Origin: a virus
Length of the DNA stretch: 22,013 nt
IMG/VR virus record: IMGVR_UViG_3300034119_000617
Span: 1-22,013 of that record
Strand: one strand, 5' to 3'
This document shows, piece by piece, positions 1-20,680 of this stretch. How positions within the stretch are numbered: the first letter of the stretch is position 1; every line of letters begins with the position of its first letter. The position numbers were made by a program, and so were the translations under genes. The notes under the pieces are model-generated. The model did not search any database, was not told the DNA's origin, and worked only from the letters and a program-made list of their open reading frames with translations.

Positions 1-125
1 TGGCCAACATCCAGCGTCAGAACACGAAGGCGATGGCAGATTTGTCACGCCGGAATGCGAAGACAACCGCTGATATTCAGCGTGCGAATGCAACTGCGGA
101 ATCCAACTTGTCGCGTCAGGGATAA
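1..125 (+). CDS. C-terminal end of a coiled-coil phage protein (partial)
   Basis: An open frame enters the window at base 3 and ends with TAA at 123-125, giving about 40 residues. They are rich in Asn, Ala, Arg and Gln with a heptad-like repeat (for example RRNAKTTADIQRANA), so the tail of this protein is probably a helical coiled coil. The next gene starts 3 bases after the stop, so the two are likely co-transcribed. The position ahead of a modification cassette would suit a virion or internal protein, but function cannot be read from 40 residues. Confidence 0.6.
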   Translation, partial: ANIQRQNTKAMADLSRRNAKTTADIQRANATAESNLSRQG

Positions 126-128
126 AAT

Positions 129-746
129 ATGGAAAACGAACAAAATGTCGCTCAATTCATCGCCGATCAGTTCCCTAAAATGGGAGGATGGTGCGATCCG
201 AAAAAGGGGCTTGAAATTGCCAAGCTTGTCCTCGAATCAAAGCCTCAAAGGATTGCTGAAGTAGGCGTTTTTGAAGGCAAGTCAACGCTTGCTCTGGCCT
301 ACGCATGCAAGCTCAACGGAAGCGGAACCGTCTACGCTATCGACTCTTGGAAGAAAGAGGACTGCATCGATGACGAGTCTACTGCGAATCAAGAGTGGTG
401 GGCTACGCTTGATCTGGACAGGCACTACGAGGCTTTTGTTGGACACACAGTTCGCGCTGGAGTCGTGAAAAACATTCAGTTCTGCCGTATGTCTTCGTGG
501 GACGCTTCACGATTTCTGCCGGACATGGACATGGTTCACATCGATGCCAATCACGCCGAATGGCCGTCTACGAGCGATGTCGTCAACTGGCTCCCAAAGC
601 TAAAGGTTGGCGGCTATCTGGTTATGGACGATGTGAACTGGGATTCAACTCAGACAGCCCTCAAGTTTGTCCTCAAGCGTTGCGAATTTATCTCGCGATT
701 TGACCTTAACGAGAGCGTATTTGCCATCTATCGAAAGTTAAAGTAA
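129..746 (+). CDS. Class I SAM-dependent methyltransferase (Methyltransf_24-like)
   Basis: 205 aa, the usual size for a stand-alone Rossmann methyltransferase. Motif I is seen at about residues 42-50 as IAEVGVFEGKSTLAL, the SAM-binding glycine loop. An acidic end of strand 2 follows (VYAIDSW), then a DMVHIDANH motif near residues 133-141 and a GGYLVMDDVNW strand/loop. The 'VHIDANH...GGYLVMDD' pattern is typical of sugar- or small-molecule O-methyltransferases of the TylF/Methyltransf_24 type. Metal-binding Asp residues of that type are plausible but not proven. It is the first gene of a packed cassette (4-base gap to the next) with two GT25 genes, so the inferred substrate is a glycan. The start ATG has no SD, only an A/T-rich leader. 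Confidence 0.8.
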   Translation: MENEQNVAQFIADQFPKMGGWCDPKKGLEIAKLVLESKPQRIAEVGVFEGKSTLALAYACKLNGSGTVYAIDSWKKEDCIDDESTANQEWWATLDLDRHYEAFVGHTVRAGVVKNIQFCRMSSWDASRFLPDMDMVHIDANHAEWPSTSDVVNWLPKLKVGGYLVMDDVNWDSTQTALKFVLKRCEFISRFDLNESVFAIYRKLK

Positions 747-750
747 CCCC

Positions 751-1353
751 GTGGAAACGGTCGTTATCACGGTGCGCGGTTCTCCTCGCATCCCGCGCTT
801 AAAAGAAAACCTTGAATCCGCTGGAATCAATAGCTATCGGATTTTCTATGGTCTTGATGGGAAGAAGTCTGGGCTAAAGGCCAGCATTCCGTACGAGGTC
901 GATAACCCCGGCTCTGGATACACAATCTGCCACAAGCATGTCGGATGCACGATGTCGCATTGGATGCTCTGGAATGCCCTAGAGTTTGATCCAAACACTC
1001 CTGACATGGTCATGGTGCTTGAGGATGACATCTTGTTCAGGCCGAACTGGCGCGAGACGGTTGAACGCGCTCTAACCAAGCTTCCTGAGAACTGGGATTT
1101 GCTCTATCCCGGCTCATGCTGCGTTCACGGCAAGATTAGCCGTGAGTATGATTCCAATCTGTTCGAGGGGATGCCGCTCTGCACCCACTGCTACGTTGTT
1201 CGAAAGAAGGCGCTGAAGACGTTGATCGAGACGAACGAGAAAATTTACGCTCCGATTGATTTGCAGATGTATTTCAACAGCAAGCATCACCTCAACTGCT
1301 TCACAATTTTCCCGCGTGTCGCCGATCAAGAGGGAATGAATTTAGCCGACTAA
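751..1353 (+). CDS. Glycosyltransferase family 25 (GT25)-like protein, copy 1
   Basis: 200 aa from a GTG start 4 bases after the previous stop; no SD is visible. The order of motifs is that of GT25 (LPS/collagen-type glycosyltransferases): an N-terminal strand VVITVRGSPR, an SHWMLWNALE helix, the acidic nucleotide-sugar/metal motif VLEDDILF (EDD), then LPENWDLLYPGSCC, LCTHCYVVRKKAL and APIDLQMYF. GT25 enzymes transfer a hexose from a nucleotide sugar, usually to LPS or to hydroxylysine. At 200 aa it is a compact catalytic domain with no membrane segment, so it should act in the cytoplasm. It is clearly paralogous to the gene at 1945-2574. Acceptor and sugar are unknown. Confidence 0.82.
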   Translation: METVVITVRGSPRIPRLKENLESAGINSYRIFYGLDGKKSGLKASIPYEVDNPGSGYTICHKHVGCTMSHWMLWNALEFDPNTPDMVMVLEDDILFRPNWRETVERALTKLPENWDLLYPGSCCVHGKISREYDSNLFEGMPLCTHCYVVRKKALKTLIETNEKIYAPIDLQMYFNSKHHLNCFTIFPRVADQEGMNLAD

Positions 1354-1357
1354 AACT

Positions 1358-1948
1358 ATGGGTTCACCATTCAACGGAGACACATTCATTGAGCAGGAGT
1401 TCCTTTACCTCAAGGAACGCTTCGAGCTGACGACTGCGGTCGAAACAGGAACGCACGAAGGTGATACGACCATCTGGTTGGCCAAGAACTTCCTGAAGAC
1501 GGTTTCCTGCGAACTTGACAATGATCGGGTTGAGAAGGCGAAGGAACGGTTTAAGCGCGAGAATGTCTACGTCGAGATGTTCGAAGGTAGCAGCGATGCC
1601 TGCATGAACTGGTTCATCCCGCATCACGGGGTTGGACACGACACAATCTTCTTCCTCGACGCGCACTGGAACGACTATCTACCGCTTCTCGAAGAGCTTG
1701 AGGCTATCAATCGGTTCGATATTCATCCAGTCATCGCAATCCACGACTTCAAAGAACCCACCGGACAACTTGGGTACGACGCTTACAAAGAGCATGAAAT
1801 ATGTTTTGGATACGTTAAAGAGAAGCTAGACGCTATTTATAGGGCTAAAACTTTAACTCAGCGTTATGGCTATAGCTACTACTACAATCATCCGAGTAAA
1901 TGCACGGGTGCGCGACGTGGCATCATCTACATCCTTCCAAACCGATGA
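1358..1948 (+). CDS. SAM-dependent methyltransferase-like protein, second in cassette
   Basis: 196 aa. Residues about 27-45 read TAVETGTHEGDTTIWLAK, a Rossmann glycine-loop motif with GTHEG. Then comes VSCELDNDRVEKAK (acidic end of strand 2) and later IFFLDAHWNDYLPLLEELE followed by VIAIHDF. The 'FLDAHW...PLLEELEAI...IHD' arrangement is seen in class I methyltransferase-like proteins next to glycosyltransferases. It is not an obvious copy of the first methyltransferase: motif spacing and key words differ. It starts 4 bases after GT25 copy 1 and its stop overlaps the ATG of GT25 copy 2 (ATGA at 1945-1948), so translation is probably coupled. Methylation of a sugar or glycan end is the inferred role. 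Confidence 0.72.
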   Translation: MGSPFNGDTFIEQEFLYLKERFELTTAVETGTHEGDTTIWLAKNFLKTVSCELDNDRVEKAKERFKRENVYVEMFEGSSDACMNWFIPHHGVGHDTIFFLDAHWNDYLPLLEELEAINRFDIHPVIAIHDFKEPTGQLGYDAYKEHEICFGYVKEKLDAIYRAKTLTQRYGYSYYYNHPSKCTGARRGIIYILPNR

Positions 1949-2574
1949 AAGTTGATTTCGAGAATACACCGACCTTCATCGTCTCAAAACCTGAGGGCGA
2001 AAAAGAGAAGCGGTGCATCAGATACATGAAGTCATTCGGAATCGATGCGGTTCCGATTTACGGCTTTCGTTCGCATAACTGCGGCATTTCAACCGACTAC
2101 TATCACACTCGCGAAAAGGAAAAGGCGAAGTGCAAGACCATCGTCGCCGGACTTAGTCACTTCTCCGTCTGGTCGGCCATCAAGTGGATGGTTGAATCGA
2201 AGGTAACCGACCACCGCACCTTCTTGATCGTCGAGGATGACGTTGAGTTTCTTGACGAGAATTGGAAAGCGAAGGCCAACGACAACCTTCAGTTCCTTCC
2301 GAATGACTGGCACATCGTCTACCTCGGAAGTTGCTGCACCGACCCCATCGAAGACCACGGTTACATCGCCTCAAACCTCTACAAACTGGTGAGAGGCATG
2401 TGTACCCACGCATATCTTGTAAATTACGAGGGCGTTTGTAAGCTCCTCGAAACGAATCAAAAGGTCTGGGCACCAATCGACATCCAGATGCTGGTCGATT
2501 CAATGCCAAGGATGAACTTCTACGGGGTTCTTCCAAGGTTAGCTACGCAGGAGAACACAAACTTGTATCCATGA
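1945..2574 (+). CDS. Glycosyltransferase family 25 (GT25)-like protein, copy 2
   Basis: 209 aa from the ATG at 1945. The open frame extends upstream to 1900, but this ATG overlaps the previous stop as ATGA and is preferred. Motifs match copy 1: LSHFSVWSAIKW, IVEDDVEF (EDD), LPNDWHIVYLGSCC, MCTHAYLVNYEGV, LLETNQKVWAPIDIQML and PRLATQENTNLYP. The two copies have similar length and motif order but clearly diverged sequence, so this is an old duplication whose members may use different donors or acceptors. No membrane segment or signal peptide is seen. The stop overlaps the ATG of the beta-propeller gene (2571-2574). Confidence 0.82.
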   Translation: MKVDFENTPTFIVSKPEGEKEKRCIRYMKSFGIDAVPIYGFRSHNCGISTDYYHTREKEKAKCKTIVAGLSHFSVWSAIKWMVESKVTDHRTFLIVEDDVEFLDENWKAKANDNLQFLPNDWHIVYLGSCCTDPIEDHGYIASNLYKLVRGMCTHAYLVNYEGVCKLLETNQKVWAPIDIQMLVDSMPRMNFYGVLPRLATQENTNLYP

Positions 2575-3926
2575 TGAAAGACATAATCCGAAGCCTGTCC
2601 CTCAAGGCACTCAAACGATTTGCAACGGGCGGTGATGGTCCGGCTGATCTTCTTCAGGAAATTGAAGACCTTCGCAAAACGCTTGAGATTCGAACCAAAG
2701 AACATGACGAGCATCTGACCGAGGTCCGCGAGGAGCGCGATCATTGGCTCGCTCTCTACGATGAAGTCAAATTCGCTGCCGAGTTTCTAATGAGCTACGC
2801 AAAAAATGACGTCCCCAAGCTGAGTGAACAAACCGATTGGGAGACTGGCAAAATCGTCCTGCCGCAGGAAACGGGGACGTACTACTTCAACCCGGCAATC
2901 ATGCTCGAACCAGATGGTCGCATCATGCTTTTCGCCCGTCGCTGCCGTAACAAGCGCGAGAAGGATGAGGATGTCTACATCGAGAAAAATGACATCGTCA
3001 TCTTCGAGCTGAGTCAGGATCTTCGCGCCACAAAGAAGTCTTTGACCCAGTTAATCTCCCACTACCCCCTCGAACAGTTCGAAGACCCTCGCGTCCTCAA
3101 ATTTGGCGACAAGTACGGTCTTGCGTGCTGCACATTCGTCCCGTTCAAGAGCTACGCGCACCAAGGAATGTTCCTTCTGGACAAGCATTTCCTAAACGTA
3201 GGCCGTTTCGACATGATCTACGGCAACAACTACGCGCAGGCCATGATCAACGATGGCCATGAGAAGAACTGGCTCTACTTCGTCCATGATAACGCGCCAC
3301 ACATGGTGTATTCGGCCAATCCTCACGTCGTTGTACGCCTTAATGGGCGTTTAGAGAAGGAGGAGGAATACGTCACCGACGAGTTCAATCCGCTCTGGAA
3401 GTTTGGCGAGGTGCGCGGAGGCTCTAATCCGATCCTATGCGACGGCTTGTACTGGACTTTCTTCCACAGCTCGCTGCCGTGGATCAACAAGAAGCGCCGT
3501 TACTACATGGGTGCCTACGCTTTCGAAGCAAAGCCTCCTTTCCGCATCGTCCGAATGACGACGTTGCCGCTTCTGACTGGAACGAATCAGCAGGATTGGT
3601 GGCCGGGATTGCCTGCGGTCGTCTTCCCGTGCGGCGCATTCTTCGATACCGCAAAGAATAAGTTTGTCGTCTCGTACGGAATCAACGATGTGGACTGTGG
3701 CTACATCAAGATTCCGTTGGCCGACTTGCTTGAGGTGACGAAGGTGATTCGACCTAAGCGCGACGTCGTCAACAAAGAGAACCCGATCAAACTTGATGAA
3801 GTTCTCGATCCAATTCCGCAGAGACATAAACTAAAACGAAACAAGAAATCAAAGTATGATGAACTGGCTAAGAGGCTCGACGAAGAACCGCAAGGAGATG
3901 GCGAAAAGTCTGATGGACTTGCCTGA
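2571..3926 (+). CDS. Five-bladed beta-propeller, GH130-like, with N-terminal coiled coil
   Basis: 451 aa. Residues about 23-63 are charged and heptad-like (DLLQEIEDLRKTLEIRTKEH onward), a probable coiled coil. From about residue 100 comes a propeller with YYFNPAIMLEPDGRIMLFAR, FEDPRVLKFGDKYGLACC, then near 350-390 VVFPCGAFFDTAKNKFVVSY and GINDVDCGYIKIPL. The 'EDPR' blade and the C-terminal 'VFPxGA...YG.ND...G' blade resemble GH130 mannoside phosphorylases/hydrolases. The last ~60 residues are Lys/Glu-rich and disordered. It is the last gene of the glycan cassette, so it may trim, phosphorolyse or bind the sugar made by the GT25 enzymes. Catalytic residues were not checked against a structure; it could be a non-catalytic lectin-like propeller. 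Confidence 0.65.
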   Translation: MMKDIIRSLSLKALKRFATGGDGPADLLQEIEDLRKTLEIRTKEHDEHLTEVREERDHWLALYDEVKFAAEFLMSYAKNDVPKLSEQTDWETGKIVLPQETGTYYFNPAIMLEPDGRIMLFARRCRNKREKDEDVYIEKNDIVIFELSQDLRATKKSLTQLISHYPLEQFEDPRVLKFGDKYGLACCTFVPFKSYAHQGMFLLDKHFLNVGRFDMIYGNNYAQAMINDGHEKNWLYFVHDNAPHMVYSANPHVVVRLNGRLEKEEEYVTDEFNPLWKFGEVRGGSNPILCDGLYWTFFHSSLPWINKKRRYYMGAYAFEAKPPFRIVRMTTLPLLTGTNQQDWWPGLPAVVFPCGAFFDTAKNKFVVSYGINDVDCGYIKIPLADLLEVTKVIRPKRDVVNKENPIKLDEVLDPIPQRHKLKRNKKSKYDELAKRLDEEPQGDGEKSDGLA

Positions 3927-4194: not shown

Positions 4195-5376
4195 ATGGAA
4201 GAACCACTGAACTCACCGACCGTTAACTCCGCGCAAACGCCTGATTTCGAAAGCTCCTTTATTGAATCTTTCAAGGCTAACACTCTTGAGGATGCCGCCG
4301 CTGGAGAGGCTAGTGCAAAAGCTTCGCAAGTAACCGAGGAGCCTAAGCAGAAGAAGCAAACACAGCCTAAGTCCGAAGCGAATACCAAGCTCAGCAAGTC
4401 TGAGATGGATATCGAGCGGATGTTCAGCCCGAAGGAGAAGGCTCCAGCTACCGAGGATTCCTCGGCTACTGATGACTCTGGCATCCCTGAGTCCATCAAA
4501 TCCACGAAAGCCGCTGATGCTTTCCGCAAGATCAAGGAAGAGAAGGCGCAGTTGGCCAAGCAGCTTGAGGAGATGAAGTCTGGCAAGGTTGCCAATCCGA
4601 GCTTCGAGGCTCAGCTCAAGACTTTGCAGGAGGAGCGCGACACGCTTTCCGAACGTGTTCGACTCCTCGACATTGAGCGCCATCCCAACTTCGTCAAAAA
4701 GTACGAGGGCAAGATTACCGGCGTGTTTGACTCGATGAAATCGGTCGTTGGCACGGATGGCGACAGGCTTGTTGGCCTGCTCAAGTCCCCTGAGAACGAT
4801 TATCGGAACTCGCAGATCGACGACATCGTTGAGGGTCTTTCGCCCTCTAAGAAGGCGAAGCTTGGCGCTCTGATCGTCAAGTACGACGAGATTAACGGCG
4901 AGAAGTCTGCGGAGATGTCCGAAGCGAAGTCCGATTACGAATCGATCATTTCGAAGTACCAGCAGGACAACGAGGAAGGCACTCGCGCTGCATTGGAGTC
5001 GGCCAATAAAACTTGGACAAAGGTGAGCGAGAACGCTCGTGCTTTGGAAATCTTTGAGCCGCGTGAAAACGACGACGAATGGAATACGGAACTGACTGGC
5101 CGACTTAGCCTCGCGCAGCAGATATTCAATGGCGAGAACAGCGAAGAAGACCTCGCCAAGGCCGCTCTATGGGCCGCTGCCGCGCCTAAATACCGCGAGC
5201 TTCTCTACTCTCAGGTTGAGGTAAACAAACGCCTACAAGCCGAACTAGCGAAGTATCGAGGCAGTGAACCCGGTGTTAGCTCGAAAGCAACGGCTGGCGG
5301 CTCCCGTGCATCAAATGCGAATGGTTCGAAGAGCGAGGACTTTGTCACGAACGTCCTGAAGTCGTTAGGACGCTGA
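4195..5376 (+). CDS. Acidic coiled-coil protein, scaffold-like
   Basis: 393 aa. The first ~105 residues are low-complexity (Ser, Glu, Lys, Pro, Thr) and probably disordered. Residues about 105-160 form a strong coiled coil (KAADAFRKIKEEKAQLAKQL, then LKTLQEERDTLSERVRLLD). A charged helical middle and an alanine-rich helix (LAKAALWAAAAPKYRELLYS) follow, then a short Ser/Gly linker and a helical tail. Soluble, acidic, coiled-coil proteins of this size are typical of phage capsid scaffolds, and the basic end helix would suit capsid docking. However, the capsid gene lies on the opposite strand 4 kb away, so the assignment is tentative. No SD precedes the ATG. A terminator follows the stop. Confidence 0.5.
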   Translation: MEEPLNSPTVNSAQTPDFESSFIESFKANTLEDAAAGEASAKASQVTEEPKQKKQTQPKSEANTKLSKSEMDIERMFSPKEKAPATEDSSATDDSGIPESIKSTKAADAFRKIKEEKAQLAKQLEEMKSGKVANPSFEAQLKTLQEERDTLSERVRLLDIERHPNFVKKYEGKITGVFDSMKSVVGTDGDRLVGLLKSPENDYRNSQIDDIVEGLSPSKKAKLGALIVKYDEINGEKSAEMSEAKSDYESIISKYQQDNEEGTRAALESANKTWTKVSENARALEIFEPRENDDEWNTELTGRLSLAQQIFNGENSEEDLAKAALWAAAAPKYRELLYSQVEVNKRLQAELAKYRGSEPGVSSKATAGGSRASNANGSKSEDFVTNVLKSLGR

Positions 5377-10536: not shown

Positions 10537-11064
10537 TTAGAATATAGTTACCTCGTCGGTCAGCTCGCTCTGATCCGCCATGTAGCTTTTGTATCCCTTG
10601 ATGATCGTTCCGATCCTGTGCGGCTGGATGATATGTTCCTTCGCGATGAATCCCCTGAACGTATACGGACCGGGGAATTGACCGATCATCAGCGCGTAGA
10701 AATCCACTCCGTCGGTCTTCGAACCTTTGCGAGCATCGACCAGTAGCTTGCCATTCTCGTACTTCGTCGTCTTCACATCGATGCGAATGCCCGGAGGGAT
10801 AGGCGGGATAATTGCGTCGTAGAGCGGGTGCGGAGGCTCGCGGTCCGTGTCGATGTCAGGATAGACATTGAATAGCTTACAGAAAGCTATCTCGCCGCAG
10901 ATGCCCTCCAGATCCACCGTCGAAGCGTCCTCTGGGCTAATCTTCAAGTTCGTCAGATTGAAATGACGATTATTGCCGGAACGATTCTTAGCCACAAAGT
11001 GGGCCAACTTCCTCTCAGCTTGATTGAGAGAAATAACTTGACCAATTTTAATTTTACTTAACAT
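10537..11064 (-). CDS. PD-(D/E)XK nuclease-like protein
   Basis: 175 aa from the ATG at 11064. An upstream TTG start is possible but is 6 bases longer and unsupported. Residues ~54-65 read LEGICGEIAFCKLF (helix with Glu), then LYDAIIPP (Asp before the strand), RIDVKTTKYENGKLLVDA (D-x-K core: D and K of the PD-(D/E)XK fold) and YALMIGQFPGPYTFRGFIAK. This E...D...DVK order is that of small restriction-like or phage nuclease-fold proteins. It may be a packaging/DNA-processing nuclease, or a defence-like enzyme. It lies between the HTH protein and the capsid gene; its partner is not known. Confidence 0.6.
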   Translation of the reverse strand: MLSKIKIGQVISLNQAERKLAHFVAKNRSGNNRHFNLTNLKISPEDASTVDLEGICGEIAFCKLFNVYPDIDTDREPPHPLYDAIIPPIPPGIRIDVKTTKYENGKLLVDARKGSKTDGVDFYALMIGQFPGPYTFRGFIAKEHIIQPHRIGTIIKGYKSYMADQSELTDEVTIF

Positions 11065-11240
11065 GGTCAAAAAGACGGAAAATTTTTGAGGGGGGTATCG
11101 TAAACGAAGCCGTCCCCAAAAGGGGGTGCCCTACTTTGCCTCACAAAGTGTGCCAATCCTAGGAAAAAAAATCCTTTTGTTCCATTAGATTATCTAATCC
11201 TGAACATAAGTTTCTACGTGTTGCACAAACACTGTTATCT
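11065..11240 (-). other. 176-base gap between the HTH and nuclease-like genes
   Basis: Holds a GC-rich hairpin CCCC-N5-GGGG (minus strand, around 11113-11127), a 13-base palindrome TTAGATTATCTAA (11186-11198) and a run of eight A/T (11163-11172). No gene is supported. The palindrome may be an operator; the A/T tract may help termination after the HTH gene. Confidence 0.4.
11186..11198. promoter_or_regulatory. 13-base palindrome, possible operator
   Basis: TTAGATTATCTAA reads identically on both strands apart from the central base. It lies in the gap 42 bases after the HTH gene. Binding by a dimeric regulator is possible; no promoter is clear around it. Confidence 0.35.
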
Positions 11241-17697: not shown

Positions 17698-17964
17698 ATG
17701 AAAGTCTTCACCGCCAAACAAACAGCAGCCATGCTCCAAATCTGCTGCGAAACGCTCCGGCGGATCGTGCGCCATGACGGCGTCCAGCATAGGAGAATTG
17801 GCCGACGAATCTTGTTCACCGAGTCCGACATCGCCGCGATTTTACAAAGTCGAGCGACAACCGGAGCAGTGAACCCATACGCAAGAAAAACAAAGAAACA
17901 AGAGAATACAAATGAGCAGCAACCAATTAGCGACAACGCAACCGCAACCGCCAGTCAGTCCTGA
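17698..17964 (+). CDS. Excisionase-like helix-turn-helix protein
   Basis: 88 aa. Residues ~5-48 match the small MerR-like HTH of the excisionase/HTH_17 family: TAKQTAAMLQICCETLRRIV, RHDGVQHRRIGRRILFTESD, IAAIL. It binds DNA, likely as a dimer or filament. The tail is polar, Thr/Asn/Gln-rich. It could be an Xis-type recombination directionality factor or a regulator of the recombination genes; no integrase is visible in the window. Its last 53 bases overlap the RecT-like gene. Confidence 0.72.
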   Translation: MKVFTAKQTAAMLQICCETLRRIVRHDGVQHRRIGRRILFTESDIAAILQSRATTGAVNPYARKTKKQENTNEQQPISDNATATASQS

Positions 17965-18721
17965 CGGAGAGTTTTACTCCCGCATCGGAACATCGCTTGA
18001 AGCGGTCAAGGAACTCGGATCGTGGATTGCGCGAAGCGGAGTCTTCAACTGTCAGAAGGACGAGCAAGGCAACATGATCGCCCTTGAATGCCTAGCCACT
18101 CGCAAGACTCCGTTCGACTTCAAGCGAGAGTTTCATCTGGTCAACGGCTCGTTGACGATGCGCTCAGACGCGATGCTCGCCGGATATCGGACTCGCGGCG
18201 GCAAGGTCATTTGGAAGCAGTTCGATTCGACTGCTGCTATCGGAGTCTGGAAATTCGACGGCAACGAATGCGAAATCGGATTTACGACCGAGGATGCCAA
18301 AATCGCAGGACTGCTTCCCGCCAAGGCTGGTTCTGGATGGCAGAAAGATCCGGCAGCTATGCTTCGCGCTCGCTGTATTTCCAAGGCTATTCGAATGCTC
18401 GCACCTGAAGTTGTTGCTGGCGTCTATACCCCCGAGGAAGTAGCCGACTTCTCCAACCCTTCACCAACACCCACCATCACCGCTACGGTGCGCCAGTCAG
18501 TCAACGTGACACCGGAACCAGCCTTCTCGCTCGTCGAGAAGTTAGAGCAGATCCTTGAGCCACATTCCGAAGCAGCGAATGCGTTCCTGCTATCGAAGAA
18601 CTTGATCAAGGCCGAGCAAAACTTCCGCGATGTATCCACAAAGGTGGCCAACATGATCCTCGCCGATGCGAGTGGTTTCATTGCCAAAGCAACCGCGTTC
18701 GCTAACCCGCCCACCGAATGA
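17912..18721 (+). CDS. RecT-type single-strand annealing protein
   Basis: 269 aa. The core shows the RecT-superfamily pattern: ALECLATRKTPFDFKREFHL, NGSLTMRSDAMLAGYRTRGG, TTEDAKIAGLLPAKAGSGWQ, KDPAAMLRARCISKAIRMLA and PEVVAGVYTPEEVADF. The last region ('W..DP..ML.ARC.SKA.R...P...GVYTPEEV') is the most diagnostic. It would bind ssDNA and promote annealing. Its stop overlaps the start of a RecE-like nuclease by ATGA, the usual pairing for phage recombination. The C-terminal ~70 residues are a helical extension. Confidence 0.8.
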   Translation: MSSNQLATTQPQPPVSPDGEFYSRIGTSLEAVKELGSWIARSGVFNCQKDEQGNMIALECLATRKTPFDFKREFHLVNGSLTMRSDAMLAGYRTRGGKVIWKQFDSTAAIGVWKFDGNECEIGFTTEDAKIAGLLPAKAGSGWQKDPAAMLRARCISKAIRMLAPEVVAGVYTPEEVADFSNPSPTPTITATVRQSVNVTPEPAFSLVEKLEQILEPHSEAANAFLLSKNLIKAEQNFRDVSTKVANMILADASGFIAKATAFANPPTE

Positions 18722-19512
18722 GCATTCTCAACCAACACGTCAATCTCGACATGCCAGCGGAGAAGTATCACGCCGTTGATGCTCTCTCTAAGTCGATGAT
18801 GTCCAAGATCCTCAAGTCCCCGGCTCATTACAAAGCCGCACTAGAGGAGCATCAGGAGCCGACGAAGTCGATGCAGATGGGTACGGCGATTCATACCGCT
18901 GTGCTGGAGCCGCAACTCTACTCGCAAGTCGTCGCTGTTGTTCCGCCGGACATCGACGGACGTACGAAGGAAGGAAAGCAGTGGAAGGAGCAGCACAAGA
19001 GCCGCATCCACCTGACTCACGCTGAAGACATCGATGTGCAAGGCGTGGCCAACAGTGTCCGTCGCCATCCGTTCTGGGACATCATTCATCTCGACCACCG
19101 GATCGAGGCGAGTGTCTTCGCTCAGGACGAAGAAACCGGCATCGCCCTTAAGGCACGTCCCGATCTGTGGATCGAAGGTCATACGCTCGTTGACATCAAA
19201 ACAACCGACGACGCATCGCCTGAGGCGTTCCTGCGAACCATCGCATCGTTCGGCTATCACATTCAGGCCGCGCACTATCTGGAGATGACCGGCGCGGAGT
19301 CGTTCATCTTCGTAGCGGTCGAGCGTAAGGCTCCGTACGCTGTCGCCATCTATCGACTGGATGCCGAATGGCTTCAGGCTGGTACGAATCTGCGACGCAA
19401 AGCAATCTCGACGCTGCACGAATGCCGCGCACTGGACAGTTGGCCAGCCTATCCAACCGCTACACAAACCCTTTCATGCCCTAAGTGGGTCTTGAATAAA
19501 TCCGAAAACTAA
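18718..19512 (+). CDS. RecE-like PD-(D/E)XK exonuclease
   Basis: 264 aa. SKSMMSKILKSPAHYKAALE and MQMGTAIHTAVLEP match the front of RecE/PDDEXK_1-type nucleases. The active site is seen as GIALKARPDLWI (D), then TLVDIKTTDDASPEAF (D-x-K) and ASFGYHIQAAHYLEM (Q-x3-Y). It degrades dsDNA 5' to 3' to load the annealing protein. ATGA overlap with the RecT-like gene makes stoichiometric production likely. No helicase domain. Confidence 0.82.
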   Translation: MSILNQHVNLDMPAEKYHAVDALSKSMMSKILKSPAHYKAALEEHQEPTKSMQMGTAIHTAVLEPQLYSQVVAVVPPDIDGRTKEGKQWKEQHKSRIHLTHAEDIDVQGVANSVRRHPFWDIIHLDHRIEASVFAQDEETGIALKARPDLWIEGHTLVDIKTTDDASPEAFLRTIASFGYHIQAAHYLEMTGAESFIFVAVERKAPYAVAIYRLDAEWLQAGTNLRRKAISTLHECRALDSWPAYPTATQTLSCPKWVLNKSEN

Positions 19513-19526
19513 CCACCGAATAAATT

Positions 19527-19964
19527 ATGTTCCAAGTAAACCGCCGAGATGCTGGAGGCCGATACATCGATGCCGAAGGCGACTACACCGTCACCGTAGC
19601 CAAGGTCGAGGAAACGCTCGATGCGAAGGGCCGCGAGGTCTGTAAGGTGACATTCAAGACTGAAGATGGCGCATCCATCACTGACCGCTTCATCAATCAG
19701 GAAAATGTCTGGTTCCGCGTCAATCAGTTGGTCGCAGCGACGAAGCACAATGTGCCTGATGGAACCGAGTACGACTTCCTTGGCGTCAAGGGCAGCTACG
19801 CGGCGTTCCTGAAGTCAATGACCGGCTTAGAGCTACTCATCACCGCTCGATCCGAGGAGTACATGGTCAACGGCGAGACGAAGAAGACGCTCCGCATCAA
19901 GAACATGCGCGAGGTTCCGATTGCCGAGGTCGATGGCGACGATCTTGATCCGAAGCCGTTCTAA
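19527..19964 (+). CDS. DUF669-like protein, possible ssDNA-binding partner
   Basis: 145 aa. FQVNRRDAGGRYIDAEGDYT, VTVAKVEETLDAKGREVCKV, TFKTEDGASITDRFINQENV and WFRVNQLVAATKH resemble phage DUF669-like proteins that sit in recombination operons. The first ~100 residues are rich in strands, compatible with an OB-like fold. The acidic end (EVDGDDLDPKPF) recalls the tail of SSB proteins, including the final PF. This is an inference, not proof of SSB function. Confidence 0.65.
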   Translation: MFQVNRRDAGGRYIDAEGDYTVTVAKVEETLDAKGREVCKVTFKTEDGASITDRFINQENVWFRVNQLVAATKHNVPDGTEYDFLGVKGSYAAFLKSMTGLELLITARSEEYMVNGETKKTLRIKNMREVPIAEVDGDDLDPKPF

Positions 19965-20029
19965 AACGCATCACGGAGGGGAGCGCATTCCGAGATAACG
20001 CTCGAAACTAAGACCTAAAATTTGTATCT

Positions 20030-20680
20030 ATGAGAGTAAAACTAGCAGCAATCACAAAACCAATTATCGGTGACGGCGCTTTGACCGCATCCGATTTCAT
20101 CACCTACGCAGCGCGAGTCAGCAATCCGAGCAATCAGATGAGTCTGCTGACCGCTCCGAAGTTATTGGCCTACTGTATCAAGAACGGCCATTGGAGCATC
20201 TTTGAGCAGGCCAGCATGACGGTCGAGATTCAGACAAGCCGCGCCATATCCGCTCAGATTATCAGGCATCGCAGCTTTTGCTTCCAAGAGTTTAGCCAAC
20301 GCTATGCGCCGTGCGACGAGGTTGAACCTGTCGAGCTTCGCACTCAGGACAGAGCGAATCGTCAAGGAAGCGGCGACATGTATCCGCAGGAGTGGGCCAT
20401 GGATGTGGTTGCTAAGTCTGTTGAACTTGCGTTCACAACCTATCGAACACTGCTTAGGGAAGGCGTGAGCCGCGAGACGGCACGAATGGTTCTCCCTCTC
20501 TGCGCTCAAACGACGCTGTACATGACCGGCAACATCCGATCATGGATTCATTATCTGGAGCAGAGATGCGCGAAGGGTACGCAGAAAGAGCATCGTCAGA
20601 TCGCCGAAGCTATCCGCGACACGATCTTCGCAGTCGAATTCCCACACATCCACGCAGCAATTGAGGAGGGCATCAAGTGA
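20030..20680 (+). CDS. thyX: Flavin-dependent thymidylate synthase ThyX
   Basis: 216 aa, the normal ThyX size. The signature RHRx7S is present as RHRSFCFQEFS, and the flanking NGHWSIFEQASMTVEIQTSR and ARMVLPLCAQTTLYMTGNIR, SWIHYLEQRC are as in ThyX. It converts dUMP to dTMP using FAD and methylene-tetrahydrofolate. It lies after the recombination genes, so its role would be to supply thymidylate for replication. The end is in the same message as the next small gene (GTGA overlap at 20677). Confidence 0.92.
   Translation: MRVKLAAITKPIIGDGALTASDFITYAARVSNPSNQMSLLTAPKLLAYCIKNGHWSIFEQASMTVEIQTSRAISAQIIRHRSFCFQEFSQRYAPCDEVEPVELRTQDRANRQGSGDMYPQEWAMDVVAKSVELAFTTYRTLLREGVSRETARMVLPLCAQTTLYMTGNIRSWIHYLEQRCAKGTQKEHRQIAEAIRDTIFAVEFPHIHAAIEEGIK

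Follow-up and report, generated by a model that had tools for sequence, protein, structure and literature searches.

An exchangeable cassette of glycosyltransferase and methyltransferase genes, closed by a constant GH130-like propeller, that may decorate the virion in a phage lineage

Introduction

Glycosylation of the virion has already been documented in some actinobacteriophages. Here we analyze a 22-kb virus record (IMG/VR IMGVR_UViG_3300034119_000617, positions 1 to 22,013; the whole stretch of 22,013 nucleotides is referred to as the window, and gene positions are counted within it) in which a cassette of five co-oriented genes lies between a portal-like gene and a small gene ahead of a scaffold-like gene. 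The cassette comprises a methyltransferase dependent on S-adenosylmethionine (SAM), MT1; a family 25 glycosyltransferase, GT25a; a probable second methyltransferase, MT2; a GT25-like enzyme, GT25b; and a protein with sequence similarity to family GH130, whose members are five-bladed propellers. The first four genes occupy a slot whose content is exchanged as a block among closely related, uncultured phages, while the propeller gene is constant. We consider that this is a lineage-specific, modular methylated-glycan cassette, which probably decorates the virion. If this is true, these viruses would constitute a natural series of near-identical phages differing by one glycan cassette, which would allow comparing how a sugar coat on the virion affects adsorption, host defence and grazing, and a question to be posed is what role a constant GH130-like propeller has in a glycan-assembly operon.

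Results and discussion

Gene content of the cassette region

Features of the region are listed in Table 1. The genes are tightly packed, with 4-base spacers after MT1 and after GT25a, and ATGA overlaps between MT2 and GT25b and between GT25b and the propeller gene. The five genes, their coordinates and their tight co-oriented packing among head genes had been proposed in a first-pass annotation of the window, which the present analysis bears out, and the order recurs in related contigs. A second ATG (2574) is a possible propeller start, the preceding codon being a non-start codon in 35 of the 79 related loci with long alignments.

The names of the portal-, scaffold- and capsid-like proteins are given by position or size, no family model having matched them above cut-off in Pfam or PHROG. 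The portal-like gene is complete in a related locus (L008), where it encodes 749 amino acids and lies two genes after the terminase large subunit; in a 43.5-kb relative (G001) the terminase, a gene of 209 amino acids and the portal-like gene are followed by the same gene run. On the other side of the cassette, the gene of 110 amino acids, which the first-pass annotation had not mentioned and for which Pfam and PHROG scans gave no match, is kept in each of the 76 propeller loci that continue for over 300 bases past the propeller, and the scaffold-like gene in each of the 71 that continue for over 1,600.

Table 1. Features in and around the cassette, with positions in the window
Feature	Position	Strand	Remarks
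Portal-like gene, C-terminal end	3..125	+	Left slot border; 92.5-100% identity in loci covering the segment
MT1 (MTa), SAM-dependent methyltransferase	129..746	+	Pfam Methyltransf_24
GT25a, family 25 glycosyltransferase, GTG start	751..1353	+	Pfam PF01755
MT2 (MTb), probable SAM-dependent methyltransferase	1358..1948	+	Pfam methyltransferase matches below cut-off
GT25b, GT25-like glycosyltransferase	1945..2574	+	PF01755 below cut-off; alignment with GT25a/GT25c
GH130-like propeller, right slot border	2571..3926	+	PF04041; likely start 2574
Conserved gene, 110 amino acids	3856..4188	+	Overlaps propeller 3' end, precedes scaffold-like gene
Scaffold-like gene, charged, helix-rich by eye	4195..5376	+	Name by position only

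Modules of the slot and their exchange

Related loci were taken as the best 80 of 137 matches to the propeller and the best 80 of 162 to the portal-like protein, so that gene orders in distant members are under-sampled. Orders were counted in 70 of the 80 propeller-query loci, the other 10 lacking the portal end, and in 79 of the 80 portal-query loci, the remaining one (L055) being already in the propeller set. Complete slots were present in at least 153 loci, which come from overlapping searches and include repeat contigs, so that the 70 distinct slot sequences are the safer count. These show 10 gene orders built from a small set of modules: MTa-GT25a, MTb-GT25b, GT25c-MTc, a GT32-like gene (alone or together with MTd) and a GT2-like gene. 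The cargo consisted of glycosyltransferase-like and methyltransferase-like genes only, and none of the 153 complete slots was empty, the shortest having 1,235 bases. The order of the window is the commonest (26 of the 70 distinct slots), and the MTa family, to which MT1 belongs, is present in 48 of them. The alternation of methyltransferases and GT25 enzymes, which had been regarded as the distinctive feature of the cassette, is therefore just one order out of 10. As to whether the genes occur separately and with no shared order in related phages, the modules are indeed combined in various ways, but in the loci examined they always lie in this slot, with the propeller after them wherever the contig extends that far. 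Judging by contig names, distinct orders can be found within one metagenome (L069 and L216 in 3300031951; L009 and L054 in 3300002835).

The flanks of the slot were compared, and a portal tree was built, with the 59 of 79 loci that cover portal, propeller and scaffold. At DNA level, identity between loci L220 and L226 is 97.2% for the portal-like gene, 97.6% for the propeller gene and 96.7% for the scaffold-like one, while their slots give no blastn match to each other. In the four pairs examined similarity ends at the portal stop codon, and in the three with a different last slot gene it returns at the propeller ATG; in the remaining pair (L177/L187) GT25b is the last gene of both slots, and a similarity of 60-90% extends up to the propeller. 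On the tree (59 sequences, 51 of them different) the order labels need 20 changes, the minimum being 6, whereas with shuffled labels the mean was 33.8 and no shuffle out of 200 gave so low a number; when two rows labelled 'other' are removed, 18 changes are needed. These figures indicate that a given order is inherited for some time and then replaced.

Median ratios of nonsynonymous to synonymous substitution rates (dN/dS) ranged from 0.053 to 0.088 across the nine cassette families (0.076 for MTa, 0.054 for MTb); the propeller gave 0.09, the portal-like gene 0.06 and the scaffold-like gene 0.116. Only pairs with dS between 0.15 and 1.2 were used, and gene reads shorter than 150 codons were dropped, being taken as the result of false upstream starts, which left 39 of 48 reads for MTa, 46 of 48 for GT25a, 24 of 37 for MTb, 20 of 37 for GT25b, 10 of 13 for GT25c and all of them for the rest. 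According to these ratios, all nine families look to be under purifying selection.

Linkage of the propeller to the cassette

All 69 portal-anchored loci that extend to the place of the propeller carry it, another 10 contigs ending earlier, and so do 4 of 4 further loci obtained with a divergent portal query. A cousin lineage, whose portal is 24-26% identical to that of the lineage studied here, was traced through a record of 92,531 bases (IMGVR_UViG_3300021962_000056, G481; locus L309). This record holds two phages of related lineages, and may be either a mis-assembly or a real junction. Among 74 cousin loci, 57 span from portal to scaffold, the remaining 17 having no scaffold match, and in all 57 the gap between both genes is 247-260 bases, with only a gene of 87 amino acids in it. 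No match to any cassette gene or to the propeller was obtained in any of the 74 loci. Genome-wide, profiles for GT25, Methyltransf_24 and GH130 matched none of 15 cousin records; in the lineage of the window GT25 was detected in 15 of 15 records (14 above cut-off) and GH130 in 5 of 5, the Methyltransf_24 count covering cousin records only. Although the GT25 model that is silent in the cousins matched every record here, silence alone does not prove absence. The pattern of presence and absence across both lineages implies that cassette and propeller were gained, or lost, together.

Methyltransferases and glycosyltransferases of the slot

The family assignments made initially for MT1, GT25a and the propeller stand above the Pfam cut-offs, while those of MT2 and GT25b are weaker than had been implied and fall below them. 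MT1 matches Methyltransf_24 with an E-value of 9.5e-20 (71.9 bits; cut-off 26.3) and Methyltransf_3 with an E-value of 9.7e-6. For MT2 the best Pfam methyltransferase match has an E-value of 0.0032 (18.6 bits; cut-off 27), a sequence search against the PDB gave no match, and Methyltransf_25 was matched at E 0.01 by 7 of 13 members of its family, that of the window included, the best E-value being 0.00053. GT25a matches PF01755 with an E-value of 1.3e-13 (51.7 bits) and GT25b with 1.7e-4 (21.9 bits), the cut-off being 24 bits; GT25b is classified as GT25-like because of its alignment with GT25a and GT25c. As for motifs highlighted previously, an E-D-D triplet, which corresponds to residues 91-93 of GT25a, is invariant in 31 of 31 aligned GT25a, GT25b and GT25c sequences, and the GVFEG loop of MT1 is likewise conserved, but the H-E-G of the GTHEG loop of MT2 is not invariant. 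The other slot glycosyltransferases were labelled GT32-like, a name of our own derived from the Gly_transf_sug DXD domain, whose DTD is conserved, and GT2-like, on the basis of Glyco_transf_7C plus weak GT2-like models.

An AlphaFold2 model of GT25a, with a predicted local distance difference test score (pLDDT) of 94.7, has a GT-A fold and superimposes on the GT25 domain of human COLGALT1 over 185 residues (Z 21.2; root-mean-square deviation 2.4). It also matches Mimivirus R655 (Z 18.6), the entry 8xkd, titled beta-1,4-galactosyltransferase (Z 16.8), and, as a distant fold match, the PBCV-1 transferase 2p6w (Z 11.1). The similarity to COLGALT1 and R655 extends across the entire protein and the acidic triplet is aligned, even though identity to GT25a is about 20%. 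We can thus confidently predict for GT25a the fold of a collagen-type GT25 domain, and this model, together with the acidic triplet, supports the initial GT25 assignment.

The GH130-like propeller

The propeller protein matches nearly the whole GH130 profile (PF04041, E-value 3.7e-11, 43 bits; cut-off 26) with its residues 86-391, ahead of which there is a conserved, helical-looking N-terminal segment. In NCBIfam, mannobiose phosphorylase models are matched with E-values of 8.3e-11 (41.4 bits out of 550) and 2.6e-8 (33.6 out of 450), and the best PDB profile match has an E-value of 6.4e-5. The AlphaFold2 model, built on an alignment of only about 15-16 relatives that are 85-90% identical, has a pLDDT of 39.1. 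In profile alignments, the E-D-P-R and F-N-P motifs and the Asp of Y-G-x-x-D line up with GH130 residues; residues of such kinds contact the -1 mannose or act as the acid in BT3780, as described in PMC4599007, and those of the propeller may be their equivalents. The Arg of the H-R-P stretch of Lin0857, which may or may not bind phosphate, aligns with an Asp. The propeller thus resembles GH130 and GT108 enzymes in its near full-length Pfam match and common motifs, but differs from them in its very low scores against the characterized members and in the extra N-terminal segment.

The bacterial context comes from two proteins in two genomes (L258 and L259), which score 25.3 and 26.6 bits with the GH130 model (cut-off 26). 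The gene of each follows a GT4-like gene (Pfam matches below cut-off); that of L259 (positions 1474-2406; L264) is in turn followed by a Wzy_C gene for an O-antigen ligase, and GT9 and GT2 genes lie close to it, so that it is possible that proteins of this type constitute a biosynthetic propeller family. Profile comparison of the phage propeller with L258/L259 gave a probability of 6.4% (E-value 0.0058). In named phages, MT839999 encodes a protein 26% identical (E-value 0.01). Canonical GH130 genes were sought in viral contigs, and around the match in the one contig obtained no GH130-like open reading frame (ORF) was recognized by eye.

The first-pass annotation considered the propeller to be sugar-cleaving, an idea that is not upheld given the low confidence of the fold model, the unsettled phosphate-site residues and the glycosyltransferase-like neighbours of the two bacterial relatives. 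That it is a mannoside hydrolase or phosphorylase trimming or recycling the glycan would agree with the extended Pfam match, the NCBIfam mannobiose phosphorylase matches and the GH130-aligned motifs, and yet the PDB match is modest, the NCBIfam bits are far under the equivalog cut-offs, the H-R-P Arg has an Asp in its place, and the context is biosynthetic both in the phage and in the bacterial relatives; we hold this function to be rather unlikely. Our tentative preference, at less than even odds, goes to a GT108-type glycosyltransferase or else to a protein without catalytic activity that binds glycan and is retained with the virion. The propeller is constant while the cassette varies, and closes a run of glycosyltransferase and methyltransferase genes; L258 and L259 are encoded behind GT4-like genes, the latter ahead of the ligase gene; and GT108 enzymes, with a GH130 fold, are presented in PMC8950772 as having dual transferase and phosphorylase activities. 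GT108 structures, however, had no sequence match to the propeller in the PDB profile comparison, and neither the comparison with L258/L259 nor the fold model adds strength. With the biosynthetic neighbours of the bacterial relatives and the dual activity of GT108 in mind, we give a biosynthetic or binding propeller no lower a probability than a cleaving one. Both assessments address a question separate from that of the cassette as a whole and are not to be summed with those given below.

Precedents for the cassette

The layout had been thought to match no described system, but there is a precedent in cluster O mycobacteriophages, for which an O-methyltransferase, two glycosyltransferases and a putative N-acetylglucosaminyltransferase are described between the portal and protease genes (PMC4351075); according to PMC11600133, which cites Freeman 2023, such enzymes modify the capsid and tail tube proteins. 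Corndog and its relatives share with the lineage of the window the combination of methyltransferase and glycosyltransferases in one run and the same relative place after the portal, with the caveats that the name of the portal is positional here and that 'O-' methylation is not implied by the comparison. From what is described for cluster O in these sources, the lineage of the window departs in that modules are exchanged and the run ends with a constant GH130-like propeller. A second parallel is provided by PBCV-1, in which a single protein, A064R, has glycosyltransferase and methyltransferase activities and builds the capsid glycan, changes in it defining antigenic classes (PMC9614988). As in our proposal, virus-encoded glycosyltransferases and methyltransferases (A064R, A061L) make a methylated glycan; unlike it, PBCV-1 is a giant virus of algae, the domains are fused, and variation is described there as arising from mutations and deletions instead of whole-cassette exchange.

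Among named phages, no relative was found of the first 11 kb of the window, MT1, MT2 or the capsid-like protein. GT25a matched only Burkholderia phage AP3 (two records, 29% identity), whose GT25 is a lone gene after late control gene D, and GT25c matched AP3 and seven Synechococcus phage records (26-28%); the queries comprised the first 11 kb, MT1, GT25a, MT2, GT25c, the capsid-like protein and the propeller. Phage-encoded variable glycosylation is also known from the gtrABC serotype-conversion clusters, which include polytopic membrane proteins. The cassette resembles them in being phage-encoded and variable, and differs in that none of 10 cassette representatives is a membrane protein: no strongly hydrophobic stretch of 19 residues was found in them (one per family, propeller included), the highest hydropathy being 1.51. 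In a literature search in which subscription journals were mostly uncovered, we did not recognize any description of a phage slot with module-swapping glycosyltransferases and methyltransferases and a GH130-like propeller. Two elements appear to be new: the codon-exact swap of whole glycosyltransferase/methyltransferase modules between phages that are nearly identical, and the constancy of the GH130-like propeller.

Proposed function and alternatives

We assign a probability of about 0.56 to a lineage-specific modular cassette for a methylated glycan, probably decorating the virion. Its variable half has one to three modules, consisting in most cases of a single glycosyltransferase (GT25, GT32-like or GT2-like) together with a single SAM-dependent methyltransferase, each module perhaps contributing one sugar and one methyl group, and its constant half is the GH130-like propeller with its conserved N-terminal segment. 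Late in infection, these soluble enzymes would draw nucleotide sugars and SAM from the host, assemble a short O-methylated glycan and link it to a phage structural protein, with the propeller acting on the glycan, extending it or holding it. Recombination between phages swaps the variable half as a block, so that glycans would differ, in the manner of serotypes, between phages whose head genes are nearly identical. The virion is favoured as acceptor because of the cluster O precedent, the position of the slot and the lack of membrane parts. The mannose content suggested for the glycan in the first-pass annotation finds no support, there being neither donor nor linkage evidence for it.

Several facts weigh against this proposal. 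MT2 is only weakly assigned as a methyltransferase, and the fold of GT25a does not identify its acceptor, since GT25 enzymes also build lipopolysaccharide (LPS) and the match of the model to 8xkd points in the same direction. A test of covariation with cassette type beyond portal distance did not single out an acceptor: only 1 of 300 shuffles reached the value of the propeller and 4 of 300 that of the terminase, two tail genes gave a weak signal (16 and 22 shuffles of 300) and the scaffold gave none, the capsid being outside the test. A tblastn search with MT1, GT25a, MT2 and GT25c retrieved no mycobacteriophage record at an E-value of 1e-5, from a collection in which the presence of Corndog is unconfirmed. 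Furthermore, the contrast with the cousin lineage may reflect a single event of gain or loss.

The cassette could instead alter the host surface (LPS or capsule), for example to block superinfection or to keep released virions off cell debris, in which case the variation would follow host surface types and not phage serotype. Pfam describes GT25 as an LPS biosynthesis protein, the 8xkd match would fit such a role, and a GH130 Pfam relative is encoded in a bacterial genome beside the gene for an O-antigen ligase. We nevertheless consider this unlikely, as the cassette proteins that were tested showed no membrane or export component, the location next to head genes is that of cluster O, whose enzymes reportedly modify capsid and tail tube, and no integrase was recognized by eye in G001, so that lysogenic conversion is not evident. 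A further possibility, more ambitious and to our judgement distinctly unlikely, is that of a combinatorial serotype locus, in which modules are traded at codon-exact borders, each combination yields a different virion glycan, and the propeller is a transferase of GH130/GT108 type that makes a common first or last linkage. Finally, variation in the slot might be ordinary neutral phage mosaicism without any link to glycan diversity. Other genes do vary as well: the tail-fibre-like gene of G001 shows partial-length identities of 44, 76 and 45% to those of three relatives, and for a pair of large genes identity is 26-40%, mostly in partial alignments. Block exchange between two fixed codons with no empty slot, a cargo restricted to glycosyltransferase- and methyltransferase-like genes and the apparently strong purifying selection on every family make this improbable.

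Turning to the acceptor in the proposed virion glycan, a (Gly-X-Y)6 tract, rich in Thr and Asn and without Lys, is present in a tail-region protein adjoining the terminase (L008:2-979) in 41 of 44 matching loci, the other three having short ORFs (55-73 amino acids) and 15 of the 59 loci having no match. This collagen-like tract was discarded as GT25 acceptor and is a mere candidate: it has no Lys, and the Pfam Collagen model was below cut-off in 2 of 15 records and absent from 13. Given the lack of Lys, the relationship of GT25a with COLGALT1 does not imply hydroxylysine chemistry.

Host and other genes

A Nitrosomonadales host, suggested by one 4.8-kb contig in a metagenome-assembled genome, was distrusted in view of the absence of a Shine-Dalgarno signal and the few propeller matches in the class: the propeller profile matched 2 of 369 genomes of the class at E 0.01, one being that same bin and the other a weak match (E-value 0.0023). 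Shine-Dalgarno sequences preceded 3 of 41, 4 of 45, 2 of 40 and 3 of 44 ORFs in four genomes, G001 and three other relatives (G004, G005 and G010), i.e. 5-9%, which is about random, and A-rich positions were observed upstream of the ORFs of these four genomes. Both features suggest that the hosts belong to a group in which Shine-Dalgarno sequences are not used.

Another strongly variable region, as judged by sequence identity, is located at G001:36022-41035, where the genes of 563 and 1105 amino acids mentioned above as varying reach 26-40% identity, the portal genes being 92-99% identical. Elsewhere in G001, a gene for 188 amino acids (G001:34045-34611; L084:14045-14611) matches the citrate synthase C-terminal domain in Pfam (34.7 bits; cut-off 27); G005 has a partial counterpart at a contig end, covering 40% of the length, and no match was obtained in G004 or G010. 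The next gene (G001:34601-35146; L084:14601-15146) encodes 181 amino acids with no match in Pfam or PHROG, in which a stretch resembling a sulfotransferase P-loop (GLPRFGSA) was noticed by eye; it is present in G005, had no match in G004 or G010, and might be another modifying enzyme. In the window itself, the presumed early region (17912-20680) encodes a RecT-like annealing protein, a DUF3799 PDDEXK-like protein and a thymidylate synthase of the ThyX type, and a DUF5843 protein (36.3 bits; cut-off 25) is encoded on the minus strand at 10537-11070, adjoining the capsid-like gene.

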